A stretch of 57,557 nucleotides of DNA from a bacterium (GTDB lineage: Bacteria > Hydrothermota > Tepidihabitantia > SM23-42 > JAOAFX01). The notes under the pieces were generated by a model, which saw only the letters and a program-made list of their open reading frames with translations, ran no database searches and was not told the DNA's origin. How positions within the stretch are numbered: position 1 is the stretch's first letter; every line of letters starts with the position of its first letter. The position numbers and the translations under genes are program-made. The DNA is taken from assembly GCA_036382775.1 (NCBI GenBank), contig DASVHD010000026.1:1-57557 (forward strand). The letters run 5' to 3'. Shown here piece by piece: positions 22,117 to 55,308 of the stretch.

Positions 22117-22140
22117 CATCACATAAGATGCACGCAAAAT
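22106..22140 (-). terminator. Hairpin immediately downstream of the tmRNA
   Basis: On the minus strand ATTTTGC...GCATC (from 22140) pairs with GATGC...GCAAAAT (to 22106), with a small internal loop. It begins at the base after the tmRNA 3' end. There is no T run, so it may be a processing or stability signal rather than an intrinsic terminator. Confidence 0.4.
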
Positions 22141-22584: not shown

Positions 22585-22612
22585 ATTATAGGAAATAAAA
22601 ATGGATTGTCAA
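22585..22612 (-). promoter_or_regulatory. Promoter of the tmRNA gene
   Basis: Minus strand: TTGACA (22612-22607), 16 bp, TATAAT (22590-22585), a full consensus. Transcription would begin ~90 nt before the mature 5' end, so the precursor needs 5' processing. The promoter lies just beyond the stop codon of thiL. Confidence 0.8.
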
Positions 22613-23577: not shown

Positions 23578-23609
23578 AAGTAACTAGTAATTGGTTGTTA
23601 GCTATTTGG

Positions 23610-23678
23610 GATTTTGGATTTCGAATTTGTTTATGTCTCATGCTGAGTATTCGACACGAAGCGGGATTTAGATATTCG
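23610..23678. repeat. Dispersed AT-rich intergenic repeat, copy A
   Basis: Bases 23610-23664 match the reverse complement of 31925-31979 at 53 of 55 positions. Bases 23664-23678 (GGATTTAGATATTCG) recur in the same orientation at 32026-32040. It fills the gap between the TGS GTPase and thiL genes. Confidence 0.85.
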
Positions 23679-23696
23679 GATTTAGGATTTGATGAA

Positions 23697-24680
23697 TTAG
23701 ACATGAAATTCTATTATGTCTCCATCATGCAGAATATAGTTCTTCTCGACCCGCTGCCCCGTGTATCCCGCATCGTTCCACAGCCGCGTGTACTGAAGGT
23801 TCTGCTTGAAGTCCTTGTGGATATACTCCGCGGCATCGATTACTGTTGTCCCGGACCTTAGCACGACCGGATCTTTCCGGGCCGGTGCCTGGCCTGCTTT
23901 CTTCGTGTATACACGGATGATCCCCAGTCTTTTGAAAATCTCATGTTTCAACACCGCAAGGCTGTCATGGTTCACAGCTGAAACAGGGATGAACGGTACC
24001 GCGTATTTTTTGCTCTGGCTAAAAGCTTTTAAGTTCTCTTCAACCGCTTTCGCGTCGGTCTTGTTGACGCAGAGTACTGCTTTGATCACGTTCCCTCCTG
24101 CTGCCGCAGCATCGCTGCCAAGATCACACGCGATGTTATGACCGGCAAGCATCTCCTGGATCAATTCGTACTGGGTCTCGAGGTCTTCGGTAGCGTCGAG
24201 CACGATCAGCACAAAAGCTGCCGAGCGGTATATCGAATACATCCACGGCTGCGTATCATCGGACAGCGGCGGCGTGTCAATGATCTGAATGAGGACGTCC
24301 TCGTAGGGCATCATGCCGACCTGCGGCGAGGTCGTCGTGTAGGGGTATTCGGCGACCGGCACGTTCGCATTGGTCAGGGCGTTCAAAAGCGCCGATTTCC
24401 CGGCGTTCGGAAGACCCAGCATCGCGACCTGACCCGCACCCTGCTTGTCGACCTGATACCACGCGGTAGACGGTCCGCCGCCGCTCTTGCGGCCGTGTTC
24501 CAACGCCTCCTTGATCTTGCTGATCTTGCTCTTCAGGTCACCCTGGATCTTCTCGGTCCCCTTGTGTTTCGGCATGATCGCCAGCATTTCCTGCAAATAC
24601 GCGAGTTTTTCCTGAGGCGTTTTTGCCTCCCGGTATTTTTTCTCCGCTTCGTAATATTGGGGTGTCAGGTTAGCCGGCAT
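23697..24680 (-). CDS. DRG/Obg-related GTPase with C-terminal TGS domain
   Basis: A 327-aa GTPase. The helical N-terminus (~1-70) precedes the G domain with G1 GLPNAGKS (89-96), switch YPYTTTSPQVGMM, a G3 reading DTPPL rather than DxPG, and G4 NKTD. A TGS domain ends the protein (VIDAAEYIHKDF, then YILHDGDIIEFHV). This is the layout of the DRG-like family of ribosome-associated GTPases. The target is unknown. It is preceded by its own promoter with a 24-nt leader lacking a Shine-Dalgarno sequence; a three-codon mini-ORF (ATG GAT CGA TAG) ends 2 nt before the start. Confidence 0.85.
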   Translation of the reverse strand: MPANLTPQYYEAEKKYREAKTPQEKLAYLQEMLAIMPKHKGTEKIQGDLKSKISKIKEALEHGRKSGGGPSTAWYQVDKQGAGQVAMLGLPNAGKSALLNALTNANVPVAEYPYTTTSPQVGMMPYEDVLIQIIDTPPLSDDTQPWMYSIYRSAAFVLIVLDATEDLETQYELIQEMLAGHNIACDLGSDAAAAGGNVIKAVLCVNKTDAKAVEENLKAFSQSKKYAVPFIPVSAVNHDSLAVLKHEIFKRLGIIRVYTKKAGQAPARKDPVVLRSGTTVIDAAEYIHKDFKQNLQYTRLWNDAGYTGQRVEKNYILHDGDIIEFHV

Positions 24681-24704
24681 CGCTATCGATCCATCGCTGT
24701 CTTC

Positions 24705-24732
24705 ATTTTAATGAAATTATCATGTAAGTCAA
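24705..24732 (-). promoter_or_regulatory. Promoter of the TGS GTPase gene
   Basis: Minus strand: TTGACT (24732-24727), 16 bp, TAAAAT (24710-24705), 24 nt to the ATG at 24680. Confidence 0.6.
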
Positions 24733-24744
24733 TATTTATCCTGC

Positions 24745-26217
24745 TCATTGACCGGTTTGAAAGCGCTGCAGCAGGCTGGTCACGCGAATCACCCATCCTG
24801 CCGCTTCGATCCGTTTGAATATGGCAAGAGCTTCCAGCAAATCGCCCTGAGCTTTTTCACTTTTACCTTCATCGGCCTCGACCCGCCCCAGGTAATAAAG
24901 AACGCGGCCCTGGTTATATACGTCCTTCAGTTTTTTGAATAATTCCAGCGCGCTTACCAGCACTTCACTGGCCTCAGCATATCTTTTTTTCTGTAAATAG
25001 GATCTTCCCAGGATCACCTTGAGCGATCCGACACGAACCTGAAGATTGTTTTTCTCAGCCAGCGAGATCTCACAGGAAATGCACCGCTGAAAATCAGCGT
25101 CAACCGGCAACCCCTGCTCCAGTCGAAACATCATTTTTGTTTCGTTGACCCGCGCAGTGATCTCGGGATTTTGAAGTTTTTCATTGATCCGTTCCACCTC
25201 AGCCAATACCTGCTCGCCTTCCTCGAATTTACCAGCTTCAATTGCGGCAAGCACAAAATGGGCATCGGTGATCGCCAGCGAATAATCATCACCCATTCGT
25301 TTTTTAAGGATCCGGGCCTCGTTGTACAACTGGCTGGCTTTCGAGTTGTTACCGAGCTTTGAATGCGCGTTCGCCAGATTACTGGTGATAATGCCGATCT
25401 CCATTATTTCACCGGTTGCTTCGCGGATGCGCAATGCTTCCGCAAACCGTGCAAGCGCCTGCCGGAAATTACCCAGCAGCATATCGTTCATCCCGAGATT
25501 GTTCATGCAGGTCGCAATACCCCGCTTATCACCCGCGGCGCGCCTGATGTGCAGAGCTTTATTGAGATACCGGGCGGCTTGCTCGTACTCACCGGTCCTC
25601 TGGAATACGGTGCCGATGTTGTTCAGTGCCAGCGCCATCTGAAGCTTCATACCCAGTTTTTCAAAAATCTCAAGGGCTTTTTCATAGTGTTCTTGTGCGC
25701 TGACAACATCCCCGCCACGCCAGTATTTGATCGCCAGATTATTGTAGGTATAGGCAAGACCCTCCAGGTTATTGCTCTTTTCAAATAATTTCCCTGCTTG
25801 CTTGTGCTTTTCACCGGCGAGCCCGAGATCACCCAGATAGCCGTACGCCCGGGCTAGTTGGTTCAGGGACCATGCCTGTCCATTGACATCACCGATGTTC
25901 TGGAACAAGCCAAGCGCTTGCATCGAAGCCCGCTTTACCGCATCGAAATCGCCGACATCGGAATTTATCTCGGCTACCGAAAGAAAGGAATCGGCCATCA
26001 ACTTCTTTATGCCCGATCGTTCAGCCATGCGCAGACATTGGTTAGCAATGGTCGTGGCGATGTCAAAATTGCCGATCATGCCGAGTATGCCTGTCTTTCG
26101 TAACAGAATGCTCCATCTGACCGCGGTCGCGAACTGACCGGCAGAATCGAATACCGCCGGATCATCGATCTTATCAAAATTGCCTTGCAGGATATCGGTC
26201 AGGTGTTTGCGCTTCAT
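24745..26217 (-). CDS. Tetratricopeptide-repeat protein
   Basis: A 490-aa protein made almost wholly of TPR units, roughly ten, clearest at residues ~90-290: GQAWSLNQLARAYGYLGDLG, LAYTYNNLAIKYWRGGDVVS, ALALNNIGTVFQRTGEYEQA, GIATCMNNLGMNDMLLGNFR. No signal peptide, membrane segment or catalytic domain is seen, so it is a cytosolic scaffold of unknown partners. It resembles the TPR arrays of Rap/LGN-like or adenylate-cyclase-linked regulators, but no effector domain is attached. The gene before it in transcription is ribBA on the opposite strand, so it is not in an obvious operon. Confidence 0.8.
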   Translation of the reverse strand: MKRKHLTDILQGNFDKIDDPAVFDSAGQFATAVRWSILLRKTGILGMIGNFDIATTIANQCLRMAERSGIKKLMADSFLSVAEINSDVGDFDAVKRASMQALGLFQNIGDVNGQAWSLNQLARAYGYLGDLGLAGEKHKQAGKLFEKSNNLEGLAYTYNNLAIKYWRGGDVVSAQEHYEKALEIFEKLGMKLQMALALNNIGTVFQRTGEYEQAARYLNKALHIRRAAGDKRGIATCMNNLGMNDMLLGNFRQALARFAEALRIREATGEIMEIGIITSNLANAHSKLGNNSKASQLYNEARILKKRMGDDYSLAITDAHFVLAAIEAGKFEEGEQVLAEVERINEKLQNPEITARVNETKMMFRLEQGLPVDADFQRCISCEISLAEKNNLQVRVGSLKVILGRSYLQKKRYAEASEVLVSALELFKKLKDVYNQGRVLYYLGRVEADEGKSEKAQGDLLEALAIFKRIEAAGWVIRVTSLLQRFQTGQ

Positions 26218-41875: not shown

Positions 41876-42130
41876 CTATGTTTTTAGCGGTTTCAATATT
41901 TTTTCAAGTTCATCCACGTCTGCGCATGCCAGCTTTTGGGCATCAGGATATTTCGCGAAAAGCACTGGCGTCACAGAATTGACCTTCTTGTCCGTGGTCT
42001 GTGCCGAGAGGATTACGGCGATCAAGAGTTCGAAATTGCTTGTATGGTCAAGTTCGATCTTCGGTTGGGGAAAATGTTTTACCAAACCGGAAAGCATGAA
42101 AGTGGCAGTCAAGTTTATTTTTTTGATCAT
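41876..42130 (-). pseudogene. nth: Truncated endonuclease III (N-terminal part only)
   Basis: Only 84 residues, matching the N-terminal helices of endonuclease III: FPQPKIELDHTSNFELLIAVILSAQTTDKKVN and VTPVLFAKYPDAQKLACADVDELEKILKPLKT. The full enzyme has ~210 residues. The helix-hairpin-helix, the catalytic Lys/Asp and the four Cys of the [4Fe-4S] cluster are all missing: the frame stops where the family continues with a GFYRNKAKNI-like segment. The next gene follows at once, so no downstream remainder is present. Excision or base-repair activity is not expected. Confidence 0.8.
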
Positions 42131-42153: not shown

Positions 42154-43563
42154 TTATCTTAGAATCTGCTGGGTTATGTTAGCGATCATGTCGACCGGGT
42201 AGCGGAGCAATCCGACGGTCAAAAGCGAGAGGATTCCGAGGATGACCACCACCAGCGACATCAGGTCAAATTTTCTGCCTGCCTTAAGATCAATGGGCAC
42301 CCCCATAAAAACGATTGTCCAGAGACGCATCATGTACAAAATACTTAAGACAGCGGCAAGCCCAATGCCCAGCGCGACAAAAAGATTATGCTGCTGGAGG
42401 GCGCCAAGGATGATCAATACTTTGGCAAAAAATCCGCCAAAGGGCGGAATGCCCATTATGGATAGCGCACAAAGCAGAAAACCAAAACCATCAGCGGGGA
42501 AGAGTCTTGCCATTCCGCGTAATTTCCTGATATCGCGTTCCTTCGCATAATGATCAATAACGCCGACGCCAAGGAACAATCCTGCCTTGGCGATACCATG
42601 TGCTAAAATGTAAAAAAGAGCGCCCGCGACCGCGGCCGGATTGCCTAATGTAAAACCGATCAGGATCAATCCGATCTGGCTGATGGTGGAATAAGCGAGG
42701 ATGCGCTTCATATCGTTTTCCACGAGCGCAGCGCAGGCCGTCACTATCACGCCGATCAGAAGCAGCACCAGGAAAAACCCGTTGAACCCTGGCGGCAAGA
42801 CCAGGGCGGTGAGAAAGATCCGGGCGAACGCGAACGCCCCGATCTTGACAAGGACTGCGGCATGCAGCAGGGCGGTGACCGGTGTCGGTGCGACGCCGGC
42901 GTCCGGCAGCCAGGTTTGTAAAGGCACCTGAGCGGATTTAGCGATTATGCCGATGACTATCAGTAAAGCCACGCCGAATGTCGGGACCACGCCCTGCAAT
43001 TGGGTAAGGTTTAAAGTATGTGTCTTTTGAAAGAGAAGTTCGAAACCGATGAGCATGCATGCGGAACCAGCGATCGTGATGATAAAAGCCTTATCAGCGT
43101 TCACTAAATGCTGCGGTTCGTTGCGATGATGCCCGATCAAACGCCAGGAGCAGATGGCGGTCATTTCCCAGAATATGTACATGAGTATCAGGTTGCATGA
43201 GTAGACCAGCCCCATCATGGAACCGATAAAGAGCAAAACAAAGTAGTAGTACTCGCTTTGATGCTCATCGTCCCTCATATACCCGATCGAATAGATCACG
43301 ATCAGCGCTCCGACCAAAGAAGAAACAAAAGCCATGAAAGACGACAGCGCGTCGGCCCTGAGGAAGAGGTCGAATCCGGGGATAAAAGGCACATGCCATG
43401 TATAGACATTGCCAAGCAGGTTTTGGGCAAGACGCAAAACCGAAAGAAGACACGTAAAGGCAGTGATCGCCACCGCCAGCGCCCTTTGGACACTACGCCA
43501 GCGGCCGAAGCAAAGGACAATGAAAGCGCCCAGGATCGGAATAAGTATCGTCGCGATCATCAA
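42154..43563 (-). CDS. Antiporter-like membrane subunit of the group 4 hydrogenase (NuoL/M/N family), canonical copy
   Basis: A 469-aa membrane protein with about 14 helices. It keeps the charged residues known to drive proton transfer in this family: Glu133 in the TM5 segment IFWEMTAICSW, Lys209 in IIAKSAQVPLQTWLPDA, and Lys240 in HAAVLVKIGAFAF. These match NuoM Glu144, Lys234 and Lys265 by motif. It is the last hydrogenase gene; its start overlaps the stop of the 830-aa subunit in ATGA. It is likely the one fully competent ion pump of the three. Confidence 0.9.
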   Translation of the reverse strand: MMIATILIPILGAFIVLCFGRWRSVQRALAVAITAFTCLLSVLRLAQNLLGNVYTWHVPFIPGFDLFLRADALSSFMAFVSSLVGALIVIYSIGYMRDDEHQSEYYYFVLLFIGSMMGLVYSCNLILMYIFWEMTAICSWRLIGHHRNEPQHLVNADKAFIITIAGSACMLIGFELLFQKTHTLNLTQLQGVVPTFGVALLIVIGIIAKSAQVPLQTWLPDAGVAPTPVTALLHAAVLVKIGAFAFARIFLTALVLPPGFNGFFLVLLLIGVIVTACAALVENDMKRILAYSTISQIGLILIGFTLGNPAAVAGALFYILAHGIAKAGLFLGVGVIDHYAKERDIRKLRGMARLFPADGFGFLLCALSIMGIPPFGGFFAKVLIILGALQQHNLFVALGIGLAAVLSILYMMRLWTIVFMGVPIDLKAGRKFDLMSLVVVILGILSLLTVGLLRYPVDMIANITQQILR

Positions 43564-46052
43564 CCCGGACCTCCGATCGATCCGAAATACCCGATCACAT
43601 TACCGGCCTGAAAAGCCAGCAGCACGCTGACGATGATAAGGACAACGACCAAGAACTCTTCTATACCATACCGTTTCCGCGACTGGAGCACCGCGGGGCC
43701 CAAGAAGACCTTCCGGATCACGCGCAAGAACGCGACAAGGTTCAATAGGCTGCTTAAACCGATCATGCAGACAATGGACCCGTTGCCTTCGAAGAGCGAC
43801 GTGGTCATATATTTGCCGAGGAAATTGGAACTGGGAGGAAGCGACGATAACATCAAACCACCGACAATGAACCCAACCGACATCACACCCGCGTTGTTAA
43901 CCAGTCCGGTTATCTCCTGGACCTTGCTTTTGCCTGTCAATCTGAACGCCGTCTTGATGCCCATGGCGACCAGTAAAATCGCGACGACTGAATTGCACGT
44001 TTGCAGAAGACCGACCGCCAGGCTATGGCTGTAACCCAGCATGACAAAGCCGCATTGTCCGGCCGCGATCGCGAACAGGAACTTGTTAAGATTGTTTTCA
44101 GTGACCGCGATAAGCGGCCCGCCGACCAGAAGCAGCAGGGCGAAGACCTGCAGATCGAATATAGAACCCGTGGTTATGTAACCCAGCAAGGGCACAACCA
44201 AAACGATCAAACCCCATAAGACCAGCGACTTCAAAGTCGAGCTCAGGAGCCTGACCGTTTCCGCGATAACATAATTGAGCTGGTCGACAACGCGGTCGAC
44301 GTACTTGAATACTATCGCCGCGGTTCCTTCGGCAAATTTCAAGAGCAAATTAAAGAGATCGTATACGCCGGCGGCGCCCTTTTCGTAAAGCATAGGCAGG
44401 TACTTTATATGCTTTATCGAAGAATAAAATTCGGTACCCGGAATCCGGGCTTCTTCACCTTCCATGATCTCGCCGCCGACAAAGATCCGGCTTTGCCTTG
44501 GTTTCAGGGCAGTGCCGGACAGGAAGATGATAAAACCGATAACGAGGGCTATAATTATGAGCATAACGGCGATCACCGGCGACCAATACCCGGAGCTCTG
44601 TATCGCGAAGGGCAGTGACGGCGCGATCAGGAACTTCATGGGGATCTGTGCCGCGAATATGCCAAAGACGATGCAGAAAAAAGCCAGAATCAGAGATGGT
44701 GCGACCAATTCGAAGCGGTTTTCTTTCACGCCATCGAATTCCTTGGGACGGCTACCCAGGAAAACCGAATGGATCATCTTCAGAAAAGAAGCGAGGGTCA
44801 AGACGCTGCCGAACATCGCGGCGATCAAGAATATCGGCCAGATAACAGTTTCCCGCGATAACTGGACTACGCCCTGATAAACCATCCATTTTGAATAGAA
44901 ACCATTCAAGGGCGGGACACCGGAAATAGCCAGCGCGGCCACTATGAACGACAAAAAAGTCAGCGGCATTTTATTTCCCAGTCCGCCAAGTCGCTCCAGA
45001 TCCGTGGTCTTTGTTCGATATTCAACACTCCCAGTTGATAGAAACAAGCAGGCTTTGTAAATCGTGTGATTGATCATATGGAATAATCCGCCGGCGATCC
45101 CGATGGGGATGCCCGTGCCGATCCCCAGGACCATATAACCAACCTGGGAAACCGCGTGGAACGACAATAATCGTATTGCTTCCTTCTGGATCATCGCCAT
45201 CATCACGGCGGCGACGATCGTCACCGAACCGATGATCATCAATAGCAGCCTTAAAGGCATTGAACCGTGCAGGTCAAAAACAAAATAGGAAACCCTGATC
45301 AACATGTAGATGCCGAGCAGTTTATCAAGGCTCGCGGGGATGAAAGCCATCGTTGGCGCAGGGGCGACCTTGGCAGCTTCAGGAATCCAGCTGTGCAAAG
45401 GCATAGCGCCCGCCTTAGCAAGGATGCCGATAAGTATCAGGATATAGGCAAAGACCGCGAGGGGCTGATCAAGGCGCAAGGGATGATTTAAGGTCATCGT
45501 GGCAACGCCAAATTTTACGAATATCAAAATAAACCCAAGGATCAAGAAAACATCAGAGATGCCGATGATAAGAAACGCCTTTTGAGCGGCTCCTGAAGGG
45601 TCCTTGCGGGCAACCATCATCATCGCATAAAGCACCACTACCAGGAAACCCCAGAAAAAAACCAGCATGAATGGACTGTGGGAAAGCGCCGCGCCGTTGG
45701 CCGCCGCCAGCGTCAAAAGAATGTAAAAAACGTAGAAACGGCTCCCCGGATATCCGTGAAGGAATGATGGCGAATAAAGCGCCAGCAAGGCGGCAAAGGC
45801 TGAACAGCCCATGATGATGAAACTGCTCAAGGCATCCGCGTAGAGAGCCAGCGATAAACCGTAGAGGTTCATGATTTCGAACGAGAAGGGCGCCAGCCGA
45901 GCGGCGAGAAAGATCCTTATGGTCAGATAAAATACAAAAAGCGCAGCGCCAAGTCCCACCGCTCTCCTGATCGGCTTGATCAGAGCGAAGAAAGAGCATA
46001 TTGCCGGAACGAGGATGGTCAGGATAAGGAGGGAACCGTTCGGGTCATTCAT
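43560..46052 (-). CDS. Long antiporter-like subunit with an extra half-antiporter module
   Basis: An 830-aa membrane protein. Residues ~1-500 form a NuoL/M/N-type unit that keeps the TM7 and TM8 lysines (Lys213 in LAKAGAMPLHSW, Lys244 in SLDKLLG) but has FFWGF at 132-136 where TM5 normally has Glu. An amphipathic segment (~545-610, KYLPMLYEKGAAG and on) resembles the lateral-helix region. Residues ~615-830 look like a second, degenerate C-terminal half of the same fold (ENNLNKFLFAIAAGQCGFVM, LSSLPPSSNFLGKYM). GAGGTGG lies upstream of the ATG, and a separate promoter precedes it. Confidence 0.85.
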   Translation of the reverse strand: MNDPNGSLLILTILVPAICSFFALIKPIRRAVGLGAALFVFYLTIRIFLAARLAPFSFEIMNLYGLSLALYADALSSFIIMGCSAFAALLALYSPSFLHGYPGSRFYVFYILLTLAAANGAALSHSPFMLVFFWGFLVVVLYAMMMVARKDPSGAAQKAFLIIGISDVFLILGFILIFVKFGVATMTLNHPLRLDQPLAVFAYILILIGILAKAGAMPLHSWIPEAAKVAPAPTMAFIPASLDKLLGIYMLIRVSYFVFDLHGSMPLRLLLMIIGSVTIVAAVMMAMIQKEAIRLLSFHAVSQVGYMVLGIGTGIPIGIAGGLFHMINHTIYKACLFLSTGSVEYRTKTTDLERLGGLGNKMPLTFLSFIVAALAISGVPPLNGFYSKWMVYQGVVQLSRETVIWPIFLIAAMFGSVLTLASFLKMIHSVFLGSRPKEFDGVKENRFELVAPSLILAFFCIVFGIFAAQIPMKFLIAPSLPFAIQSSGYWSPVIAVMLIIIALVIGFIIFLSGTALKPRQSRIFVGGEIMEGEEARIPGTEFYSSIKHIKYLPMLYEKGAAGVYDLFNLLLKFAEGTAAIVFKYVDRVVDQLNYVIAETVRLLSSTLKSLVLWGLIVLVVPLLGYITTGSIFDLQVFALLLLVGGPLIAVTENNLNKFLFAIAAGQCGFVMLGYSHSLAVGLLQTCNSVVAILLVAMGIKTAFRLTGKSKVQEITGLVNNAGVMSVGFIVGGLMLSSLPPSSNFLGKYMTTSLFEGNGSIVCMIGLSSLLNLVAFLRVIRKVFLGPAVLQSRKRYGIEEFLVVVLIIVSVLLAFQAGNVIGYFGSIGGPG

Positions 46053-46105
46053 GCATCCACCTCGATCTTTGGAAACAGAGGCGTTCAGTCTTCATGAACG
46101 AATCG

Positions 46106-46133
46106 ATTATATTCATATGCCGTGAGCTGTCAA
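46106..46133 (-). promoter_or_regulatory. Internal consensus promoter within the hydrogenase operon
   Basis: Minus strand: TTGACA (46133-46128), 16 bp, TATAAT (46111-46106). It lies just after the ferredoxin gene stop at 46140 and gives a ~46-nt leader to the 830-aa antiporter gene. Confidence 0.75.
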
Positions 46134-46139
46134 ACATAT

Positions 46140-46745
46140 TCAGTATCCCCAGATCTCGTGAAGGTAGACGCTGCGCCGGCATGCCGGGCAAAGGAATCTG
46201 AGATGCTCGCTTCGGTACGGCGCAGCATCCTTGTTTCTGGGCAGATTCTCCTCGCCGTATTCCTGCGATAAAACCAGGAACAAGGTCGGGTTCGCGTAAG
46301 CAAGCTCGCCAACCCGGTGCGCGATCCACAGCAACTGCGCGCGCGTTGTGATCACGGTCCCGCAGCGCTCGCAGAGGATCAGCTCTTTCTCGATCGAGTT
46401 GGTGTAGCCATCCTTTGTTATCTGTACCAGGTCATATTCCTGGGTGTGCCGTATCCCATCTTTGGTCGTGCAGTACGCGACGCACTGGCCGCAGTACACG
46501 CACCGCTCCTGGTAATGGATCTCGCGTCTTATTTTTTTCGTTCTATTGTCTTCCTGAGCCCGGGCATTGGCCGGGCAAACTTCAACGCAGGCACCGCAGA
46601 GAATGCATTTATCAAGATCGAATTCTATCTTTCCCCTGAACCTTTTCTGCGCGGGCGATGGCTTTCCGGGGAATTGGCTCGTATAAGGTCCTTTGAATAT
46701 CGCTTTGATCGCCTCGATCAGTTCTCTTATCTTAGGCTTGCGCAT
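46140..46745 (-). CDS. Ferredoxin-type subunit (NuoI/HycF-like) of the hydrogenase
   Basis: A 201-aa protein. Two [4Fe-4S] sites, CILCGACVEVCP and CVYCGQCVAYC, follow an N-terminal segment with KGPYTSQFP. The C-terminal half adds two more CxxC pairs (CERCGTVI, CPACRRS), probably a zinc site as in HycF/HyfH-like proteins. It would conduct electrons between the peripheral Fe-S subunits and the small subunit. GGGGGA precedes the ATG; 51 bp separate it from the 520-aa antiporter gene. Confidence 0.88.
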   Translation of the reverse strand: MRKPKIRELIEAIKAIFKGPYTSQFPGKPSPAQKRFRGKIEFDLDKCILCGACVEVCPANARAQEDNRTKKIRREIHYQERCVYCGQCVAYCTTKDGIRHTQEYDLVQITKDGYTNSIEKELILCERCGTVITTRAQLLWIAHRVGELAYANPTLFLVLSQEYGEENLPRNKDAAPYRSEHLRFLCPACRRSVYLHEIWGY

Positions 46746-46796
46746 TTTTCCCCCAGATCATTTCTCTTGTTTTTTTCATAAGATATCCGTGTTCAT

Positions 46797-48359
46797 CTAA
46801 GCCAATCCGGACTGTCGTTTGATCGTTTTGCCGAAAATCAGAATGACCAGGCCAACGATAAAACCGGCCATGACCAGTACCGTCGCCAGGACCGATGACC
46901 CGAAGCTAAATGCCGGGATCTTGAACGGCAGAGATGGATATACCAGTTTGCTGAGCGGGATCTGATGCACCAAAACGCCGAACACGATGCATGCAAGCGC
47001 AAAAACAAGGGTCGTCGCCATCATTTCGAACCGGATCTCGCACACTCTGTCCGATCCCTCCGGTCTCTTGCTTAGAAAAAATATGTAGACCATCTTCATC
47101 AGGGACATTACCGCCAGAACACTGCCCGATATCATTACCAGCAGGAATACCGGCCACAGGATCGTCTGCCCTGACAATTCCATTATGCCCTGATAGAGCA
47201 TCCACTTCGAATAAAACCCGTTCAAAGGCGGCACGTCCGAAATCGCCAATGCCGTGATAATAAAAGCGATCGCTGTGAAAGGCATCCTTGGGATTATTCC
47301 GCGAAAATCGCTTAGCCGCGTTGTTTTTGTTCGGAATTCCACCGAGCCCGCCGACAGGATCAAACCGGCTTTAGAGATCACGCTGTTTATCATATGGAAC
47401 AACCCGCCCGCAACGCCGACCGGACTGCCCGTCCCTATCCCCAGCACCACGAAGCCGACCTGGGCGACAGTGTGAAACGAAAGTATCCTCATGGCGTCAT
47501 CCTGCGCGATCGTTTTTATCAAAGCTACCAATACGGTCATTGAGCCGATCGCCATAATGACCAGCCTGAGCAACAGTGAATTTGAAAGGTTAAAAATGTA
47601 ATAGCATGACCTGATGAGCAAATATATCCCCAACAGATTGTTCAGACTCGCGGGTATGAATGCCATCGTGGACGCGGGTACAACCGTTGCGGCTTCTGCG
47701 GACCAGATCTCCGAAGGGATCGCCCCAGCCAGAACAAGCGCGCCGATCGACATCAGAATAAATGAGATTACCGGAAGGGGGCCGTCAAATCCTATCCTGG
47801 GTTCAACTGGAAAGCTCAGCCCATCGCTGTGTTTCATTAACAACATACCAATACCCACGATGATCAAGAAAACCGCGAGGCCATTTATCACTGCCGCCCT
47901 TCGGGCGGCAAGCGTACTGTCTTTTTTACCGATAAGCAGGAATTTGTAGATCAAAAACACCATGACTGCCAACGCCAGGCTCAGCATGAACGGACTGCCG
48001 CTGACAACAATGATATTTGCCACTGACAGAGCAACGGCAACGTACAGGTAGTAAATTCGCTCCCTGGGTGTTTTCAGCATCGCTCTCAGCGCATAAAACC
48101 AGATCAGAAATGCGATCGCTGAGATGAAGAGAAGTACCAGTCCCGAGAGGCTGTCAAGATAAAACCGGAAACCGACACCGGGGATCACGCTTATGGTATA
48201 GGCTATCGTGCTGGTCCTGGTGATGATGAACAATTGTATCGAGAAGAACAAGGTGAGAAAAAACCCCATAAAATTGAGTTCGTTCCTCAATAATTTGACA
48301 AAATACGCAAGGAGACCGGCCAGCACGGGAAAGAAAATGATATATAATATCTGGTTCAT
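46797..48359 (-). CDS. Antiporter-like membrane subunit lacking pump residues
   Basis: A 520-aa, ~14-helix relative of NuoL/M/N, closest in wording to the 830-aa subunit (shared TMAFIPASL, LLGIYLLIR, VPPLNGFYSKWMLYQG). Unlike it, the TM7 Lys is Leu210 (LVLAGAIPSEIW), the TM8 Lys is Asn241 (SLNNLLG), and TM5 has no Glu (LSLALAVMVFLIYKF). The TM12 Lys in FYSKW remains. It is therefore unlikely to pump protons by the known mechanism. Its start overlaps the large-subunit stop (ATGA). Alternative view: it could carry another ion or be structural. Confidence 0.85.
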   Translation of the reverse strand: MNQILYIIFFPVLAGLLAYFVKLLRNELNFMGFFLTLFFSIQLFIITRTSTIAYTISVIPGVGFRFYLDSLSGLVLLFISAIAFLIWFYALRAMLKTPRERIYYLYVAVALSVANIIVVSGSPFMLSLALAVMVFLIYKFLLIGKKDSTLAARRAAVINGLAVFLIIVGIGMLLMKHSDGLSFPVEPRIGFDGPLPVISFILMSIGALVLAGAIPSEIWSAEAATVVPASTMAFIPASLNNLLGIYLLIRSCYYIFNLSNSLLLRLVIMAIGSMTVLVALIKTIAQDDAMRILSFHTVAQVGFVVLGIGTGSPVGVAGGLFHMINSVISKAGLILSAGSVEFRTKTTRLSDFRGIIPRMPFTAIAFIITALAISDVPPLNGFYSKWMLYQGIMELSGQTILWPVFLLVMISGSVLAVMSLMKMVYIFFLSKRPEGSDRVCEIRFEMMATTLVFALACIVFGVLVHQIPLSKLVYPSLPFKIPAFSFGSSVLATVLVMAGFIVGLVILIFGKTIKRQSGLA

Positions 48360-49558
48360 GTTCCCGACAAAGTCCTGTACAGCTGGTTTCCGTATCGCTT
48401 TTTGATCTTCTCGGTTTTCTGCCAGGAAAGTTTCAGCAGGTCAAGGCCGGAAAATTTCTTTTTGCCATCCACATATACCGCAGTTCTTTCAGTACAGCAG
48501 TAGCAGGGATCGACCGCCGCCAGGACCAACGCTGCGTCAGCGATGGAATAACCTTTGACCGCCACGACATTGGAGGGAATATTCATATAGCTGGGCGCGC
48601 GTATCTTATGCCGGACCGGCATATTAGAACCATCGCTACGGACATAGTGGAATACTTCGCCCCTCGGCGCTTCGTGCCGGCCGATCCCTTCGCCGACCGG
48701 TATTTCCGCTATTCTTTCCTCGATCGGGCCATCCGGCATCTGCTTGAGACACTGACGGATGATCTTGATGGATTCGAAGCATTCCAGCAGCCTTACTTTG
48801 GCCTTGGCCAGCACGTCACCCTCGTTGAAAACGATCGTGTTCCAGTCGATCTTGTCATAAGCGTCATAGGGATCGTCTTTACGCACGTCGATCGCACAAC
48901 CGGACGCCCGGGCCGTGGGACCGAGCACGCCGTAAGCGATGGCATCGGCCTTCGGCAGAATACCAACCCCCTCTAACCGCGCCCTGATCACCGGGTCGTC
49001 GAGCACGGCTTTAGTGAACAGTTCTGCTTTCTTTTCCACTTCGTTCAGTACTTTTTCGATCCGGGGAAAATCTTCGGGCAGGATATCACGCCGTGCGCCT
49101 GCCACCTTGTTCACTGCGTAGTGGTTGCGGTTGCCCATGATCAGCTCGAAGAGATCAAGGATCGGTTCCCGGTACCGCCACACCCACATCCAGACCGTAT
49201 TGTAACCGATAAAATGCCCGGCAAGACCGACCCAGAGAAAATGCGAGTGGAGCCGCTCCAGCTCGGCGACGATGGTCCGGATGTATTGCGCTCGAGGAGG
49301 CGCTTTGATCTTCCAGGCATCTTCCACGGCCATGACATAAGCGTATGGATGAGAATCCGAGCATATGCCGCATATCCTTTCAACGAGAAAAGGAACCTGG
49401 TCATAGGTCATCGTGGTTGCCAGGTATTCATGACCGCGGTGATTGTAGCCGAGATTGATCTCCATATCGATGACTTTTTCGCCCTCGACAATCAGCTTGA
49501 AGAACTCCGGCTCCTCCTGTAACGGGTGATAGGGCCCGATCGGTATGATCCGCTTCAT
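48356..49558 (-). CDS. Group 4 [NiFe]-hydrogenase large subunit
   Basis: A 400-aa protein of the NuoD/HycE/EchE family. Both NiFe ligand motifs are intact: RICGIC at 61-66 (ERICGICSDSH) and DPCYCC at 350-355, so it should bind the NiFe centre, unlike NuoD of complex I. About 45 residues follow the second motif; in processed hydrogenases such a tail is removed by a protease, but group 4 members differ on this point and no maturation protease gene is in the window. It produces or consumes H2. Context: small subunit, NuoC-like and NuoH-like subunits lie directly upstream. Confidence 0.94.
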   Translation of the reverse strand: MKRIIPIGPYHPLQEEPEFFKLIVEGEKVIDMEINLGYNHRGHEYLATTMTYDQVPFLVERICGICSDSHPYAYVMAVEDAWKIKAPPRAQYIRTIVAELERLHSHFLWVGLAGHFIGYNTVWMWVWRYREPILDLFELIMGNRNHYAVNKVAGARRDILPEDFPRIEKVLNEVEKKAELFTKAVLDDPVIRARLEGVGILPKADAIAYGVLGPTARASGCAIDVRKDDPYDAYDKIDWNTIVFNEGDVLAKAKVRLLECFESIKIIRQCLKQMPDGPIEERIAEIPVGEGIGRHEAPRGEVFHYVRSDGSNMPVRHKIRAPSYMNIPSNVVAVKGYSIADAALVLAAVDPCYCCTERTAVYVDGKKKFSGLDLLKLSWQKTEKIKKRYGNQLYRTLSGT

Positions 49559-49561
49559 GAT

Positions 49562-50041
49562 CTACCTTTGCTTATCCTCGTAATCCCGGCGCAGTGGATA
49601 CGCTGTATCAGGCCAATCATCAGGCGTCAGCAGGGGTGCCAGATTCGGATGCCCGATAAAATCCACGCCCAGAAGCTCATGGATCTCCCGCTCGATCCAG
49701 TTCGCCGCGGGCAGGAAATCAGTCAGGCTTTTGATGCTCAGATCATCCTTGGGCGCGACGGTCTTCACGTTATAATACGTGCCTGACGCGTCATGCGAGA
49801 AATTGTATATGATCTCGATACCGCGTCTTGTATCGATACCGGTAGCGATCGAAAAACGGCATTTTTTTATTTCGAAAAGGTACTGCGCCAGGTCATGGGC
49901 TAAAGCTCGGTCGATCGTGAGGTAGACCCGGCGGGGTGCGTGGACCTTGACCTCCAGACCCGGGTATTTCTTTTCCAGATCAGCGATCAGATCCGGTGAA
50001 TACTCTTTGCGCATACCGCCGTCCTTTTTTGCTGCGGTCAT
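49562..50041 (-). CDS. NuoC-like subunit of the hydrogenase
   Basis: A 159-aa protein of the 30-kDa/NuoC family. Diagnostic parts are IEIIYNFSHDASGTYYNVKTV, IKSLTDFLPAANWIEREIHELLGVDF and the C-terminal YPLRRDYEDK. It joins the large and small subunits in the hydrogenase module. It ends 3 bp before the large-subunit gene. An alternative start at ATG 50014 (MRKEYSPDLI) is possible. Confidence 0.9.
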   Translation of the reverse strand: MTAAKKDGGMRKEYSPDLIADLEKKYPGLEVKVHAPRRVYLTIDRALAHDLAQYLFEIKKCRFSIATGIDTRRGIEIIYNFSHDASGTYYNVKTVAPKDDLSIKSLTDFLPAANWIEREIHELLGVDFIGHPNLAPLLTPDDWPDTAYPLRRDYEDKQR

Positions 50042-50045
50042 TGTC

Positions 50046-50462
50046 TCATAACCTCTTAAGAGCCTTGACCACGCCCATAATTATCGCTTCGGGTTTGGGC
50101 GGGCAGCCCGGGATGTACACGTCGACCGGGATATGCTTGTCATAAGTTCCGACCGCAGTGTAAGAGTGTTCGAACATATGGCAATTGCAGGCGCACGTGC
50201 CCACGCCGATGACCAGACAGGGTTTGGGCGTCTGCTCGTACACCCGGAGCACCCGGGGCAGGCTCTTTTTGTTCAGAACCCCGGTAACCAGCAACGCATC
50301 CGCGTGGCGCGGCGAACCCACCAGAACGATCCCAAACCGCTCAACATCCCAGCGCGGCGTCAGCACGTCGAGTATCTCAATATCACAGTTGTTGCATGAT
50401 GCCGCCGCTACATGGAACACCCACGGCGATTTTTTCAAACCCCACAACTTGACGTTACCCAC
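50046..50462 (-). CDS. Hydrogenase small subunit (NuoB-like)
   Basis: A 138-aa protein that carries the proximal [4Fe-4S] cluster next to the NiFe site. Cysteine motifs: SCNNCDIEIL, GTCACN and GCPPKPEAI. The start is GTG 50462, with GGGAG 6-7 nt upstream. It lies between the NuoH-like and NuoC-like genes, the order found in many energy-converting hydrogenases. Confidence 0.92.
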   Translation of the reverse strand: MGNVKLWGLKKSPWVFHVAAASCNNCDIEILDVLTPRWDVERFGIVLVGSPRHADALLVTGVLNKKSLPRVLRVYEQTPKPCLVIGVGTCACNCHMFEHSYTAVGTYDKHIPVDVYIPGCPPKPEAIIMGVVKALKRL

Positions 50463-50473
50463 CTTTGACTCCC

Positions 50474-51391
50474 TTAAAAGCCCAAAAAAGCCAGTATCAA
50501 ACCAATGACCGCTACCGGCCCAAGGACGAACCAGAAAAATTTAAGCGCCTGGTCTATCCTCAAACGCGGGTTCGTGTTTTTGATCAGGACCATAAGAACG
50601 ATGATCAACAGGAATTTCAGCAGCGCAGTCCAGCTGGTGAGCCCGCCCCAGAGCATAGTGATAATGTACACCGGCAGAACGACCAGCATCATCGCGCGCG
50701 TGAGCCGGTACACAGCCAGCGCGACACCCGAATATTCGATATACGGACCGCTCATGATCTCCTGCTCCGCCTCTGGCGTATCGAAAGGAACATAACCAAC
50801 CTTTGCCTGAGCCGAAAGCAGCATGACGACACATGCGATCACGCCTGAAACCGAATAAAGATGGGGGTGCGCGGCTTGAGACGCCAAGATCTTCGAGACA
50901 TAGATACTGCCGCCTGATTTAAGGATGACCGTGGCCGTGGCGAGCAGGAACGGCAGTTCATAGGCAAAGTACAGCGTCATCTCCCTCGAAGCGCCGATGC
51001 TGGCAAGGGGGTTTTTCGACGCCGAGCCACCGATGATTATCGACAGCGGCAGCAGCGCAAAAAGATATATTATCACAATAAGATCGCCAATAAAAGATGA
51101 CCCGGGCCGAAAATTCATGATGAAGAGCATCACCGACAGCGTGGTGACCGCTATCAGACCGATCAGCGGCGCGAGGAAGAAAAGAAATTTTGAGGCTCCC
51201 TCGGGAACCATCGTTTCTTTCAACAACAGTTTAAGAAAATCAGCGTATGGCTGGTACCATGGCGGGCCTACTCTCCACTGAACGCGCGCGGTCACCTTGC
51301 GTTCAACCCACGTGAGAAATAACCCGGCGAACGCGGTGAAGATAAAACCCGGAAAGACCACGTACGCGAAGATGGTCGTCAACACGTTCAT
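50474..51391 (-). CDS. NuoH/HyfC-like membrane anchor subunit
   Basis: A 305-aa protein with about eight membrane segments. NuoH family wording: FLTWVERKVTARVQWRVGPPW, GASREMTLYFAYELPF, VGYVPFDTPEAEQEIMSGPYIEYSG. It anchors the hydrogenase module in the membrane and forms the first part of the ion path. Its ATG shares one base with the ferredoxin stop (TAATG). Confidence 0.93.
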   Translation of the reverse strand: MNVLTTIFAYVVFPGFIFTAFAGLFLTWVERKVTARVQWRVGPPWYQPYADFLKLLLKETMVPEGASKFLFFLAPLIGLIAVTTLSVMLFIMNFRPGSSFIGDLIVIIYLFALLPLSIIIGGSASKNPLASIGASREMTLYFAYELPFLLATATVILKSGGSIYVSKILASQAAHPHLYSVSGVIACVVMLLSAQAKVGYVPFDTPEAEQEIMSGPYIEYSGVALAVYRLTRAMMLVVLPVYIITMLWGGLTSWTALLKFLLIIVLMVLIKNTNPRLRIDQALKFFWFVLGPVAVIGLILAFLGF

Positions 51392-51858
51392 TATTTTCTC
51401 CTCACGAACGCGTCCTTTGAAACAAAGCGCACGCCGAGCTCCAGTTTGTCGATCTCCTCATCGCTCAGATACTTCAACGCGCCCGATGAACAAGCGGCCA
51501 CGCAGCGCGGACCCGCTTCGCGGTCGCGGCAGAGGTTGCATTTCTGCGATATGCGGCGCACCAGCGGCATGTCGATGACCCCGAAAGGACAGGCCAGCGC
51601 GCAACTGTGGCAGCCCGTGCATATGTAAGCGGACCGCTGCACGATGCCGGTCGCCTCATCGCGGGTAATGGCTGACACGGGGCAGGCTGCGGCGCAGAGA
51701 GGCTCGGTGCAGTGCTTGCAGGCCAGAGGCAGATAGGCAGTTACCTCAAGATCGGCATGGCGGATGCGTGCCTCGCCTTTAAAGGCAGCGCGGCAGGCAG
51801 CCTCGCAGGACCGGCACCCGCAGCATACGTCAAGATCGAGCACTATTCTTTGCGCCAT
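51391..51858 (-). CDS. Polyferredoxin (HycB/CooF-like), four [4Fe-4S] sites
   Basis: A 155-aa Fe-S protein with four cysteine groups in the DMSO-reductase beta-subunit pattern: CCGCRSCEAAC, CKHCTEPLCAAACP, CTGCHSCALACP and CNLCRDREAGPRCVAAC. It would pass electrons from the flavin and molybdopterin-like subunits to the hydrogenase. It overlaps the previous gene by 16 bp. In formate hydrogenlyase the equivalent HycB partners FdhF; here the partner lacks a Mo ligand. Confidence 0.9.
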   Translation of the reverse strand: MAQRIVLDLDVCCGCRSCEAACRAAFKGEARIRHADLEVTAYLPLACKHCTEPLCAAACPVSAITRDEATGIVQRSAYICTGCHSCALACPFGVIDMPLVRRISQKCNLCRDREAGPRCVAACSSGALKYLSDEEIDKLELGVRFVSKDAFVRRK

Positions 51859-53411
51859 ATCTTAACTGCGGTCGGCATGAAGCGGACCGTTTGTTCATCG
51901 ATCCAGTAATCAAAAAGACCCCTGGTCAGGCTGGTCTCGGCCGGCACCGCGATCACGCCCGGGTCTGTATCATGAGAGATCTTTGCCGGCAGGCTCTGCC
52001 GGGATTGCGCCGATTCGACAACGACCGTTTCGCCATCCTTGACGCGCAGAGCCGCGGCATCCTCGGGATTGATCTTGAGCATCTCCGGTTCGAAAAACGC
52101 GCCAAAACAAAAAGCTAGTTTTTCGCCTACCAGCCGGTAACTCTTTTTCTTCCGCTGCCGGGACCGCTCTACGGCCTGTCCGACCCGGGCTTTAAGGTTT
52201 GCGGCAAGCCTTGGCGCTGCCGCTGATTTTTTTTCAGCCGGACTGGTATTTCCAGGCAGCGGCAGCAGTTCTAAGATCGTCCGCACACCGCTGGGCGCCA
52301 GGACCGCCCCGCTGATCGTCTTTTCACCAAAGATTGTCGTCACGGTCCCCGCCTTTTCGATGTTCAAAGCCAAAGGCATGGCCGTGCAAGATCCCACCCG
52401 CCATGGCGTGGCAGCGACCAGGTGGACGCCTTTCAACTCCTTTGCCAGTTGAGGATAATGGTGCGGAAAGAGCTCGCCCAGGCATAACAGGTTCTTTATC
52501 CGCTTTTCCCTGATGCGGTCCATGATCATGGCAAAATCAACGCCGCCGGGATAACCGGCAAACTCGTAAAGCGGTACCAATTTCATGCCCGAGTGATCAC
52601 GCAAAAGCCTGAGTCCTTCGGTCCAGAGCGAGTCATCATACGAGCGTCCAAAAGGCACGGAAGCGAACATGAGCCCGCCCGAGCCCGCGTTCTTAATAAG
52701 CTGCGATATGCCGTTGATGGTTGCGGCCGCCACGCCAGTTGTCTCCTCGATCCCCTGGTCCTCGAGATCGACCAAGGCCAGTAATAGCAAGACCAGCGGT
52801 TCGGTGCCGGCCTTTGCTTTAAGAAAATCCGTGGCAAAAGCGGCGGTGTGCGTTTTCATCGAATCGATAACGACCAGACGGTTCTTCCGGTCGCGCAAAC
52901 GCCAGGCGATGATTTCTTTTGAGATCATCGGACTTTGATTGAATACATCCCCTACAAGGCAGATGACCTGCGCTTTATCGATCTGCTCCGGTGAAAAGGA
53001 TGCCTGCTCATGGATCAAAGACGACAGCGCCGACTCTGATTCCAGGTATGCCGAGGCGTACTGATCAATAGAATTAGCGTGGCAGAACGCAACCAGCCGG
53101 CTGTATTCCTCATGCGTGATGTTCCGGTCGAATACAACCGCCAGTTTCTCCGGCTCAGCGACCATCTTCTGCAGATCCTTGCTGATCCTGTCCCAGGTAA
53201 CGGGACGGTCGTTCTTGAGGGGCTGTGTCAGCCGGCGCGGATGGTCCAGGTAAATGGCCGACGCGCTGCCGCGCGGGCACAGGCGTCCGCTATTCGGCGA
53301 GCCTTTTGGGTATTCGACACCCCTGACTCCAAGATCGTCAAAGACAACCTCCAGTTCGCAACCATATCCGCAGAGCGGACACAGCGTTCGTTTGTTTGCT
53401 GCCATGGTCAT
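51843..53411 (-). CDS. Molybdopterin-oxidoreductase-family Fe-S protein, no Mo ligand visible
   Basis: A 522-aa protein, shorter than catalytic formate dehydrogenases (~700 or more). The N-terminal [4Fe-4S] site is intact: Cys11, 14, 18 and 45 (CPLCGYGC, then LCPRG). The middle has the Rossmann-type halves of the family, and the C-terminus has a dinucleotide-binding-like domain (LRVKDGETVVVESAQS). Around YASAYLESESALSSL, where formate dehydrogenases carry the Sec or Cys that binds Mo, no Cys is present and no in-frame TGA occurs. It is therefore closer to a NuoG-like electron conduit. Its start overlaps the flavoprotein stop by 4 nt. Confidence 0.8.
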   Translation of the reverse strand: MTMAANKRTLCPLCGYGCELEVVFDDLGVRGVEYPKGSPNSGRLCPRGSASAIYLDHPRRLTQPLKNDRPVTWDRISKDLQKMVAEPEKLAVVFDRNITHEEYSRLVAFCHANSIDQYASAYLESESALSSLIHEQASFSPEQIDKAQVICLVGDVFNQSPMISKEIIAWRLRDRKNRLVVIDSMKTHTAAFATDFLKAKAGTEPLVLLLLALVDLEDQGIEETTGVAAATINGISQLIKNAGSGGLMFASVPFGRSYDDSLWTEGLRLLRDHSGMKLVPLYEFAGYPGGVDFAMIMDRIREKRIKNLLCLGELFPHHYPQLAKELKGVHLVAATPWRVGSCTAMPLALNIEKAGTVTTIFGEKTISGAVLAPSGVRTILELLPLPGNTSPAEKKSAAAPRLAANLKARVGQAVERSRQRKKKSYRLVGEKLAFCFGAFFEPEMLKINPEDAAALRVKDGETVVVESAQSRQSLPAKISHDTDPGVIAVPAETSLTRGLFDYWIDEQTVRFMPTAVKIWRKE

Positions 53412-54214
53412 AGGAACGGCTCCCGGATGTCCTTGACATCACGCCAGGTCAGAACCGGACCGTCCTTGCACACGTAGAAATGACCCAGGCGGCAGTGGTT
53501 GCATTTGCCAATACCGCAGGACATGTTCTTTTCCATCGACAGGAAGATATTTTCATCCTTAAAGCCGGCCTCAAGTAAACGCTGGGTCGAGAACTTCATC
53601 ATGAGTGGCGGGCCGCAGACGATCGTCGGGGCGGCTTTTACGTCCACGGGGATCTTGTCCAGGATGGTTGTCACAACACCGACGCGACCGGTCCAGGTCT
53701 GATCGCCAACATCGACCGTGGTCAGGAGATCGACGTTCTTCAATTCCTGCCATTGAGGGATCAAATATTTATAGACAATATCCGCCGGCGTGCGGGCACC
53801 ATACCGGATGTATATCTTTTTGAAATCGCGAGCCTGGCTGAGCAATGCCAGAAACAGGGCGCGCAATGGGGCAAAACCGACCCCGCCGCCGACGATGAAT
53901 ATGTCCTTGCCCTTGAACGCGTCCAGGGGGTAAGGCTTGCCGAAAGGCCCGCGCACGCCGACCGTATCGCCCTCGCTCAGTTTAAAAAGCTCGCGCGTCA
54001 CCTTACCGACCCGCATTATGGTAAACTCCATGTCATCGGCATGCGGTGATGAAGAAGGTGTGAACGGCGCTTCGCCGACGCCCGGTATAGTCAGCTCGGC
54101 AAACTGACCGGCGAGGAAATCGATCGGCCGCTGGTCAAGGATAAAGGTCGTGATCGCGGGGGTTTCCGATATGATCTTCTTGATCTTGACCGCGATCGGA
54201 TAATATGGGTTCAT
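53408..54214 (-). CDS. FAD/NAD(P)-binding subunit (sulfhydrogenase gamma-like)
   Basis: A 268-aa flavoprotein of the ferredoxin-NADP reductase fold, PyrK/NfnA/HydG type. FAD motif region: FLAGQFAELTIPGVGEAPFT. NAD(P) loop: FIVGGGVGFAPLRALFLAL. C-terminal [2Fe-2S] motif: SCGIGKCNHCRLGHFYVC. It would exchange electrons between NAD(P)H and the Fe-S chain. Start ATG 54214 overlaps the previous stop in ATGA; a longer reading to 54328 would put 38 codons over that gene. Confidence 0.9.
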   Translation of the reverse strand: MNPYYPIAVKIKKIISETPAITTFILDQRPIDFLAGQFAELTIPGVGEAPFTPSSSPHADDMEFTIMRVGKVTRELFKLSEGDTVGVRGPFGKPYPLDAFKGKDIFIVGGGVGFAPLRALFLALLSQARDFKKIYIRYGARTPADIVYKYLIPQWQELKNVDLLTTVDVGDQTWTGRVGVVTTILDKIPVDVKAAPTIVCGPPLMMKFSTQRLLEAGFKDENIFLSMEKNMSCGIGKCNHCRLGHFYVCKDGPVLTWRDVKDIREPFL

Positions 54215-55218
54215 AGCGATTGCATGACCTCCCTGATGTCGATCTTTGCTGAACAGCCGCTGAAACAACGGCCGCATCCGGAGCAGGCCCGTTTCTTTTC
54301 GTATTGCGGGAAGTAATTGAACTTGCACTGGAAGCGGTTCCAGAACCGCTCATCGATCGCGCTTCGCGGGTTGGCGCCGCCGCCTACCCGCGCGTATGCC
54401 GCATAGTAACACGCATCCCAGCTCCGCACGCGCTCCATGTCCGTCCCTTTCTGATAATCGCTGAGGAGGAAACAATAACAGGTCGGACATGCATGCAGGC
54501 AGGCAAAGCACTCCACACACGCGTCACGGGCCTTGCGGATCGCCGCTTTAGGCGCCTTTTCGATCAGCCAAGCCAGGTTCTCTTTCAAACCCTTGGGATT
54601 GATCTCCTCCAGCCGCTGCATAGCATGGCGCCGCACCGCGTCGCGCTCTTCCTCATGCTCGCGCTGTGCATCACTGAACAATCTTTGATTGTCGCTGACG
54701 ATAGCCTCGCCTCGGTCGGTCCTGGCATCAAAAAACAATCCGTTCTTTAATCGGGTGACGTTTATATCGCACATTTCTTCGCCATAGGGTTTCCCGCCGA
54801 CGAGGTTGCAGAAACAGGTCGGTTCGGGTTCGGGGCAGTCCGCCGAGATAATCACGGTGTTGGACCGCTTGTCCTTGTAAAAGGGATCTGCTGGTTCCCA
54901 TTTCTCGAATACCCGGTCATGCACATCAAGACCGTGGAGGTCGCAGCCCTTCAGACCGATAAGGTATAAGGTCTCACGCTTGCGTCGATCGATATCGACC
55001 GGGAACCGCGCGACCGTATCGCGCGACGGCAAAAAGAAATGCTTCATGTTCTCAGCCGTCCGGATCCCCGAGAAATCAGGTACGAGCAGCGGTTCCTGAC
55101 CATAACGTACAAAATGTCTTTTTTTGTCTATTACCGCCGAATAGTAAACGGTCCCTTGGTGTGAAAGGGCTTCGATGAACTCTAAAATATTTTTTTCCGG
55201 GAGTAAGCGATGGCTCAT
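54211..55218 (-). CDS. Fe-S subunit (sulfhydrogenase beta-like)
   Basis: A 335-aa protein of the HydB/anaerobic sulfite reductase A type. It carries two [4Fe-4S] motifs, CVECFACLHACP and CSGCGRCFSGC, in the C-terminal half, and further conserved Cys in ADCPEPEPTCFCN. In archaeal sulfhydrogenases this subunit pairs with the FAD gamma subunit, as here. It is first in the operon, with a ~55-nt leader that contains a palindrome but no Shine-Dalgarno sequence. Confidence 0.9.
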   Translation of the reverse strand: MSHRLLPEKNILEFIEALSHQGTVYYSAVIDKKRHFVRYGQEPLLVPDFSGIRTAENMKHFFLPSRDTVARFPVDIDRRKRETLYLIGLKGCDLHGLDVHDRVFEKWEPADPFYKDKRSNTVIISADCPEPEPTCFCNLVGGKPYGEEMCDINVTRLKNGLFFDARTDRGEAIVSDNQRLFSDAQREHEEERDAVRRHAMQRLEEINPKGLKENLAWLIEKAPKAAIRKARDACVECFACLHACPTCYCFLLSDYQKGTDMERVRSWDACYYAAYARVGGGANPRSAIDERFWNRFQCKFNYFPQYEKKRACSGCGRCFSGCSAKIDIREVMQSL

Positions 55219-55280: not shown

Positions 55281-55308
55281 ATTATAATAAAAAAAAGGGC
55301 GTTGTCAA
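55281..55308 (-). promoter_or_regulatory. Promoter of the hydrogenase operon
   Basis: Minus strand: TTGACA (55308-55303), 16 bp, TATAAT (55286-55281), a full consensus. It is divergent from the hutI promoter. Confidence 0.8.

Follow-up and report, generated by a model that had tools for sequence, protein, structure and literature searches.

The window analysed here is a stretch of 57,557 nucleotides from an uncultured WOR-3 bacterium, whose closest named relatives are WOR-3/Stahlbacteria MAGs (about 79-84% identity in protein H, described below). Twelve adjacent genes, A to L, lie on the minus strand of this window, running in that order from position 55218 down to 42154 (Table 1). Together they most likely build a membrane machine that exchanges electrons between the NAD(P)H pool and H2 and moves ions. 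An earlier note on this DNA had named and located these genes; each was found where it had been placed, on the minus strand, and the family profiles agree with the names. These family matches, combined with about 80 related loci in which the gene order recurs, are far beyond chance. The related loci were retrieved with the window's own H as the seed and thus represent its closest relatives; they do not sample the group 4 enzymes at large. The gene junctions mostly overlap or abut, the widest gaps being those between I and J (51 bp) and between J and K (87 bp). For B, the ATG at 54214 is a likelier start than the GTG at 54328, and gives a 4-bp overlap with A.

Table 1. Genes of the hydrogenase cluster and promoters associated with it (positions in the window)
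Feature	Position	Strand	Description	Supporting match or motif
Promoter upstream of A	55281..55308	-	perfect sigma-70-type promoter	TTGACA-N16-TATAAT
A	54211..55218	-	AsrA / sulfhydrogenase beta-like multi-[4Fe-4S] protein, 335 aa	NF040829 ShyB 1.3e-43
B	53408..54214	-	AsrB / sulfhydrogenase gamma-like FAD, NAD(P)H, [2Fe-2S] protein	AsrB TIGR02911 9.7e-65
C	51843..53411	-	molybdopterin-oxidoreductase fold, 522 aa, one [4Fe-4S]	Pfam Molybdop_Fe4S4 and Molydop_binding
D	51391..51858	-	HycB/CooF-like, Cys for four [4Fe-4S]	Fer4_11 1.6e-17; conserved Cys
E	50474..51391	-	NuoH/MbhM-like membrane subunit	NADHdh 6e-66
F	50046..50462	-	NuoB-like hydrogenase small subunit, proximal [4Fe-4S]	Oxidored_q6 4.2e-28
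G	49562..50041	-	NuoC-like subunit	Complex1_30kDa 2e-25
H	48356..49558	-	[NiFe] catalytic large subunit, NuoD family, C-terminal extension	RICGIC (L1), DPCYCC (L2)
I	46797..48359	-	antiporter-like subunit, 520 aa	Proton_antipo_M 3.1e-30
J	46140..46745	-	HycF/NuoI-like two-[4Fe-4S] subunit	PRK12387 8e-25
Promoter before K	46106..46133	-	perfect sigma-70-type promoter inside the J-K gap	TTGACA-N16-TATAAT
K	43560..46052	-	antiporter-like subunit, 830 aa	Proton_antipo_M 5.7e-49
L	42154..43563	-	antiporter-like subunit, 469 aa	Proton_antipo_M 5.1e-67

The genes had been described as a single operon. The perfect promoter in the J-K gap suggests that K and L may form a separate transcription unit, so that one operon of all twelve genes is likely but not certain. 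Perfect sites of this kind occur three times in the whole window against 0.02 expected, and the same element is found just 5' of A in the relatives L037, L045, L046 and L048. The third site (22585-22612) lies upstream of a tmRNA gene (22138-22489, minus strand), which is recognized by Rfam (153 bits) and was missed by ARAGORN.

The four cysteines expected to bind the Ni-Fe site of H (C63 and C66 in the first motif, C352 and C355 in the second) are kept in 80 of 80 aligned sequences, and the cluster cysteines of F (C23, C26, C90 and C120) are 100% conserved in the alignment. The best PDB matches of H are MbhL (6cfw) and HycE (7z0s), and the membrane and small subunits expected of a group 4 enzyme (NuoB-like, NuoH-like and antiporter-like) are all present. 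The genome contains genes for Ni-Fe maturation, namely, HypD and two HycI-type proteases, and HycI genes flank related clusters in other genomes. The intact ligands and the maturation genes argue for a functional Ni-Fe site in H. The proposal that the cluster encodes a group 4 [NiFe]-hydrogenase and not complex I is thus upheld by the presence of all four cysteines; complex I itself is ruled out, as the Ni-Fe ligands are kept and the cluster contains no NuoEF. In a tree of H, one clade (SH-aLRT 99) holds all 80 sequences and leaves outside HycE/HyfG, MbhL and the second group 4 enzyme of the genome, a paralogue at C29; the deep branching order is unsure due to the long branches leading to Mbh, Hyc and this paralogue. 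The clade includes L071 from Saelkia tenebricola, an enzyme that has been labelled group 4g and Mrp-linked (PMC8542988). The cluster of the second group 4 hydrogenase (L005, 8319-17722; genome C29) does not harbor the A-D module, and carries its own antiporters, a gene for a HycI protease and, immediately 5' of the cluster, a perfect promoter. A distant large-subunit match at about 23181-25166 of genome C31, with a HycI-type protease nearby, is probably a soluble group 3 hydrogenase.

The best matches of A and B are the beta and gamma subunits of Pyrococcus furiosus sulfhydrogenase 1 (9nez_B, 6.6e-33, and 9nez_C, 3.7e-49, respectively). Both proteins are homologous to the group 3b beta and gamma subunits, yet they score below the NCBIfam equivalog cutoffs. 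The cysteines of A are 100% conserved in 59 sequences, with the exception of C150 and C298, and in B, Cys 271, 276, 279 and 287 and the GGGxG and CGPP motifs are 97-100% conserved in 67 sequences.

We examined the gene order at the 61 loci whose sequence reaches at least 4.6 kb beyond the hydrogenase core on its upstream side. A, B and D were found there, in the same order, at 58, 59 and 61 of these loci, respectively. In the two loci in which B was not called, L042 and L065, the sequence stops within D or B, so that a contig junction is a likelier cause than a true absence of the gene. A, B and D to G precede H in identical order in 16 phyla (as labelled by the submitters; some of the genomes may be misbinned). 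In a survey of 130 genomes from the phylum, 52 of the 63 H homologues with at least 57% identity have A upstream on the same strand, as against 0 of the 25 below this value. Several of the remaining 11 sit near contig starts. G052 and G063, which belong to one genus, carry A without linkage to H, and G058 has it on the downstream side of H; these three may represent rearranged clusters. The B proteins of H-linked loci form a clade of their own (SH-aLRT 99), apart from the gamma subunits of soluble hydrogenases of the same organisms. Distances in A and B correlate with those in H (Mantel r of 0.84 and 0.86, respectively; 0 of 500 permutations as high), values that stand alongside those of the core subunits (0.83-0.88); part of this correlation stems from the common descent of entire clusters. 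Based on the synteny, the separate clade of B and the correlated divergence, A and B appear to be a dedicated part of the hydrogenase complex and not an accidental neighbor, in agreement with the dedicated NAD(P)H-type module on a group 4 hydrogenase that had been proposed. The same three lines of evidence rule out chance neighborhood, with G052, G058 and G063 left unexplained. The possibility that the two genes belong with another operon and are only adjacent here did not hold either, as A is the sole AsrA-family gene of the genome.

The ion-moving arm has a composition of its own. I is 43% identical to K and 46-52% identical to the K proteins of WOR-3 relatives, and both I and K are nearest to the single K of these relatives (46-57%), indicating that I is a duplicate of K. 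With respect to the Glu in TM5 and the Lys in TM7, I has neither, K has only the Lys, and L has both. Appended to K is a half antiporter (about residues 636-815), so divergent that its identity to any relative reaches only about 20-25%. No small Mrp genes (MrpB, MrpC, MrpE, MrpF, MrpG or MbhD/E-like) lie between H and L, and MrpE was not found in the genome of the window, while a search of 41 genomes detected it in 36. The relative L040 harbors MbhD/E-, MrpB-, MrpC-, MrpD-, MrpE-, MrpF- and MrpG-like genes. In the lineage of the window, the pump arm has thus been remodelled, with loss of the small Mrp subunits and duplication of one antiporter. A switch of coupling ion tied to this loss was considered and rejected; judged by eye, the ATP synthase c subunit is without the Na+-binding residues of Na+-type enzymes, and the same is the case in sister genomes that keep Mrp.

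In J, an additional quartet with the pattern CxxC...CPxC (C125, C128, C186 and C189) is 97-100% conserved in 49 sequences and corresponds to a metal site described in HycF (PMC9474812). J together with D points to a soluble arm resembling that of formate hydrogenlyase.

We consider it probable that the cluster encodes an NAD(P)H:H+ oxidoreductase, that is, a group 4 hydrogenase fed by a nicotinamide module and coupled to ion movement. Electrons would pass from NAD(P)H to the FAD and [2Fe-2S] cluster of B, from B to the [4Fe-4S] clusters of A, and from A to the four-cluster, HycB-like D, with C standing beside D as an inactive FdhF/NuoG-like scaffold. From D they would proceed through the HycF-like J and the NuoB-like F to the Ni-Fe site in H, and the redox step would power ion movement via E and the antiporter-like I, K and L. 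The conservation of ligands, the gene order across phyla, the codivergence of A and B with H, and the matches to P. furiosus sulfhydrogenase 1 all speak for this model, and make it the likely one. Points against it are the unlinked A in G052 and G063 and its downstream position in G058, the absence from I of the usual ion-channel Glu and Lys, and the promoter before K, by which K and L may lie outside the same unit. The gene content, the conserved ligands and a dedicated flavin module that codiverges with H are established here; the physical assembly, the electron path, its direction, the cofactor (NADH or NADPH) and the coupling ion are inferred.

Energetics are a further point against the model, as the midpoint potential of NAD(P)H is insufficiently below that of H+/H2 to allow pumping unless H2 is low. 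If NADPH stands near -370 mV and the H+/H2 couple, at about 10 Pa of H2, near -296 mV, forming H2 from NADPH would provide about 14 kJ/mol, corresponding to roughly one ion. Higher H2 favors the reverse direction, and NADH is a weaker donor than NADPH. When partner organisms hold H2 low, the enzyme would thus oxidize NAD(P)H to H2 and export ions; when H2 is high, it would run in reverse, making NAD(P)H at the cost of the ion gradient.

The earlier note had counted ferredoxin as an additional electron donor. Of the two inputs, only the NAD(P)H-type module is supported. A related explanation is that the enzyme is a ferredoxin-coupled hydrogenase of the Mbh type, in which A and B serve as a lateral branch of the complex where ferredoxin and NAD(P)H trade electrons, possibly as a three-way or confurcating junction. 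The core does resemble Mbh, J and D are possible docking sites for ferredoxin, HydDB lists the role of group 4g as undetermined and putatively ferredoxin-coupled (PMC5037454), and an Mbh-like function has been suggested for a similar cluster in Saganbacteria (PMC6349859). Nevertheless, we regard this explanation as unlikely, as the genome offers other candidate routes for ferredoxin (the C29 hydrogenase without the A-D module, and an RnfC gene) and the only flavin domain is that in B, with no second flavin protein in the operon.

A second alternative would make C a subunit that still binds a pterin cofactor and oxidizes some substrate, formate or another, with A and B as an outlet to NAD(P)+. 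C has the fold of molybdopterin oxidoreductases; its AF2 model (pLDDT 90) is closest to nitrate reductase, formate dehydrogenase (FdhH) and NuoG, and it scores with the formate dehydrogenase model TIGR01591, as does the Saganbacteria gene (PMC6349859). Against this, the WOR-3 homologues examined have without exception YxEP or HIEP in place of Sec/Cys-His at the ligand position, in line with the earlier note, which had described the protein as lacking a Mo ligand; Cys-His is retained in the FdhA-like protein of L067. The chain is also about 200 residues shorter than FdhH. The four [4Fe-4S] cysteines of C are kept in 27 of 27 aligned sequences. C is found in WOR-3 loci and is lacking from most loci of other phyla, which shows that the clade can do without it; Fermentibacteria L114 has at the same position an unclassified protein whose cysteines are similarly arranged and which has no Pfam match. 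An active formate dehydrogenase is ruled out by the loss of the Mo/W ligand, and a pterin-dependent C of any kind seems highly improbable to us. The missing ligand and the patchy distribution fit an inactive scaffold carrying one [4Fe-4S] cluster. Equally improbable is the idea that A and B act as AsrAB in the reduction of sulfite or sulfur and have only the operon in common with the hydrogenase. The AsrA and AsrB profiles do match them, but the siroheme subunit AsrC was absent in a profile search of the cluster genes, and both proteins track the hydrogenase clade across phyla and codiverge with H.

The NAD(P)H:H+ oxidoreductase that we favor can be compared with several known systems. It shares a NuoBCDHI-like core and antiporters with the group 4g enzymes of HydDB and with Mbh-type enzymes (group 4d; P. 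furiosus Mbh, 6cfw), but Mbh is without an NAD(P)H module, and the cluster of the window is without a full Mrp module, its genome lacking MrpE. Escherichia coli formate hydrogenlyase (FdhF-HycBCDEFG, 7z0s/7z0t; PMC9474812) likewise displays an FdhF-like, HycB-like and HycF-like arm, the cysteine quartet of HycF and a HycE-like large subunit; there, however, FdhF is active and feeds electrons from formate, whereas in the window the Mo ligand is missing from C, and the cluster includes a flavin module. P. furiosus sulfhydrogenase 1 (group 3b, 9nez), whose beta and gamma subunits are homologous to A and B, is a soluble enzyme with a group 3 large subunit and no membrane arm, in contrast to H of the window, which belongs to group 4/NuoD. 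Complex I resembles the cluster in its membrane arm, its NuoBCDHI-like core, its Mo-less NuoG-like scaffold and its NAD(P)H input, but the window cluster keeps the Ni-Fe site and has a flavin module of the AsrAB type rather than NuoEF.

The claim that this was a new gene set was overstated. In 2019, the same set was reported in Saganbacteria RX5A by Matheus Carnevali et al. (PMC6349859), who called it enigmatic; it comprises asrA, asrB, cooF, an unclassified molybdopterin oxidoreductase, a group 4 hydrogenase and Mrp-like antiporters, and the closest relatives of that hydrogenase are in Omnitrophica and Zixibacteria. Compared by reported gene content alone, the window differs in being without the small Mrp subunits and in having one antiporter duplicated. 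As to whether the gene order had already been described as a characterized complex, no characterized complex with this gene set was found in the open-access literature, subscription papers lying outside the search. What is new here is the breadth across phyla, the dedicated and codiverging flavin module, the probable Mo-family scaffold that consistently lacks its ligand, and a form without small Mrp subunits and with a duplicated antiporter.

These features raise the possibility, which we put forward tentatively and with somewhat less than even confidence, that the clade is a class of its own, made up of energy-converting NAD(P)H:H+ hydrogenases and present in many uncultured phyla. An enzyme of the formate hydrogenlyase type would have gained an AsrAB arm, the FdhF-like protein would have decayed to a scaffold in WOR-3, and the architecture of complex I, with its NAD(P)H arm, ligand-less Mo-fold scaffold and ion-pumping arm, would have been reached separately by an enzyme that still makes H2. 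If so, this would be a living parallel to complex I, in which a ligand-less Mo-fold subunit stands beside a nicotinamide module and the Ni-Fe site is kept. If members of the clade take NAD(P)H directly, the inferences on redox balance and syntrophic H2 production drawn for WOR-3, Omnitrophota, Elusimicrobiota and others would need to be redrawn.

Adjoining the end of the gene block, a truncated fragment of endonuclease III was found at 41876-42130 (minus strand), and a longer HhH-GPD protein is located at C12.
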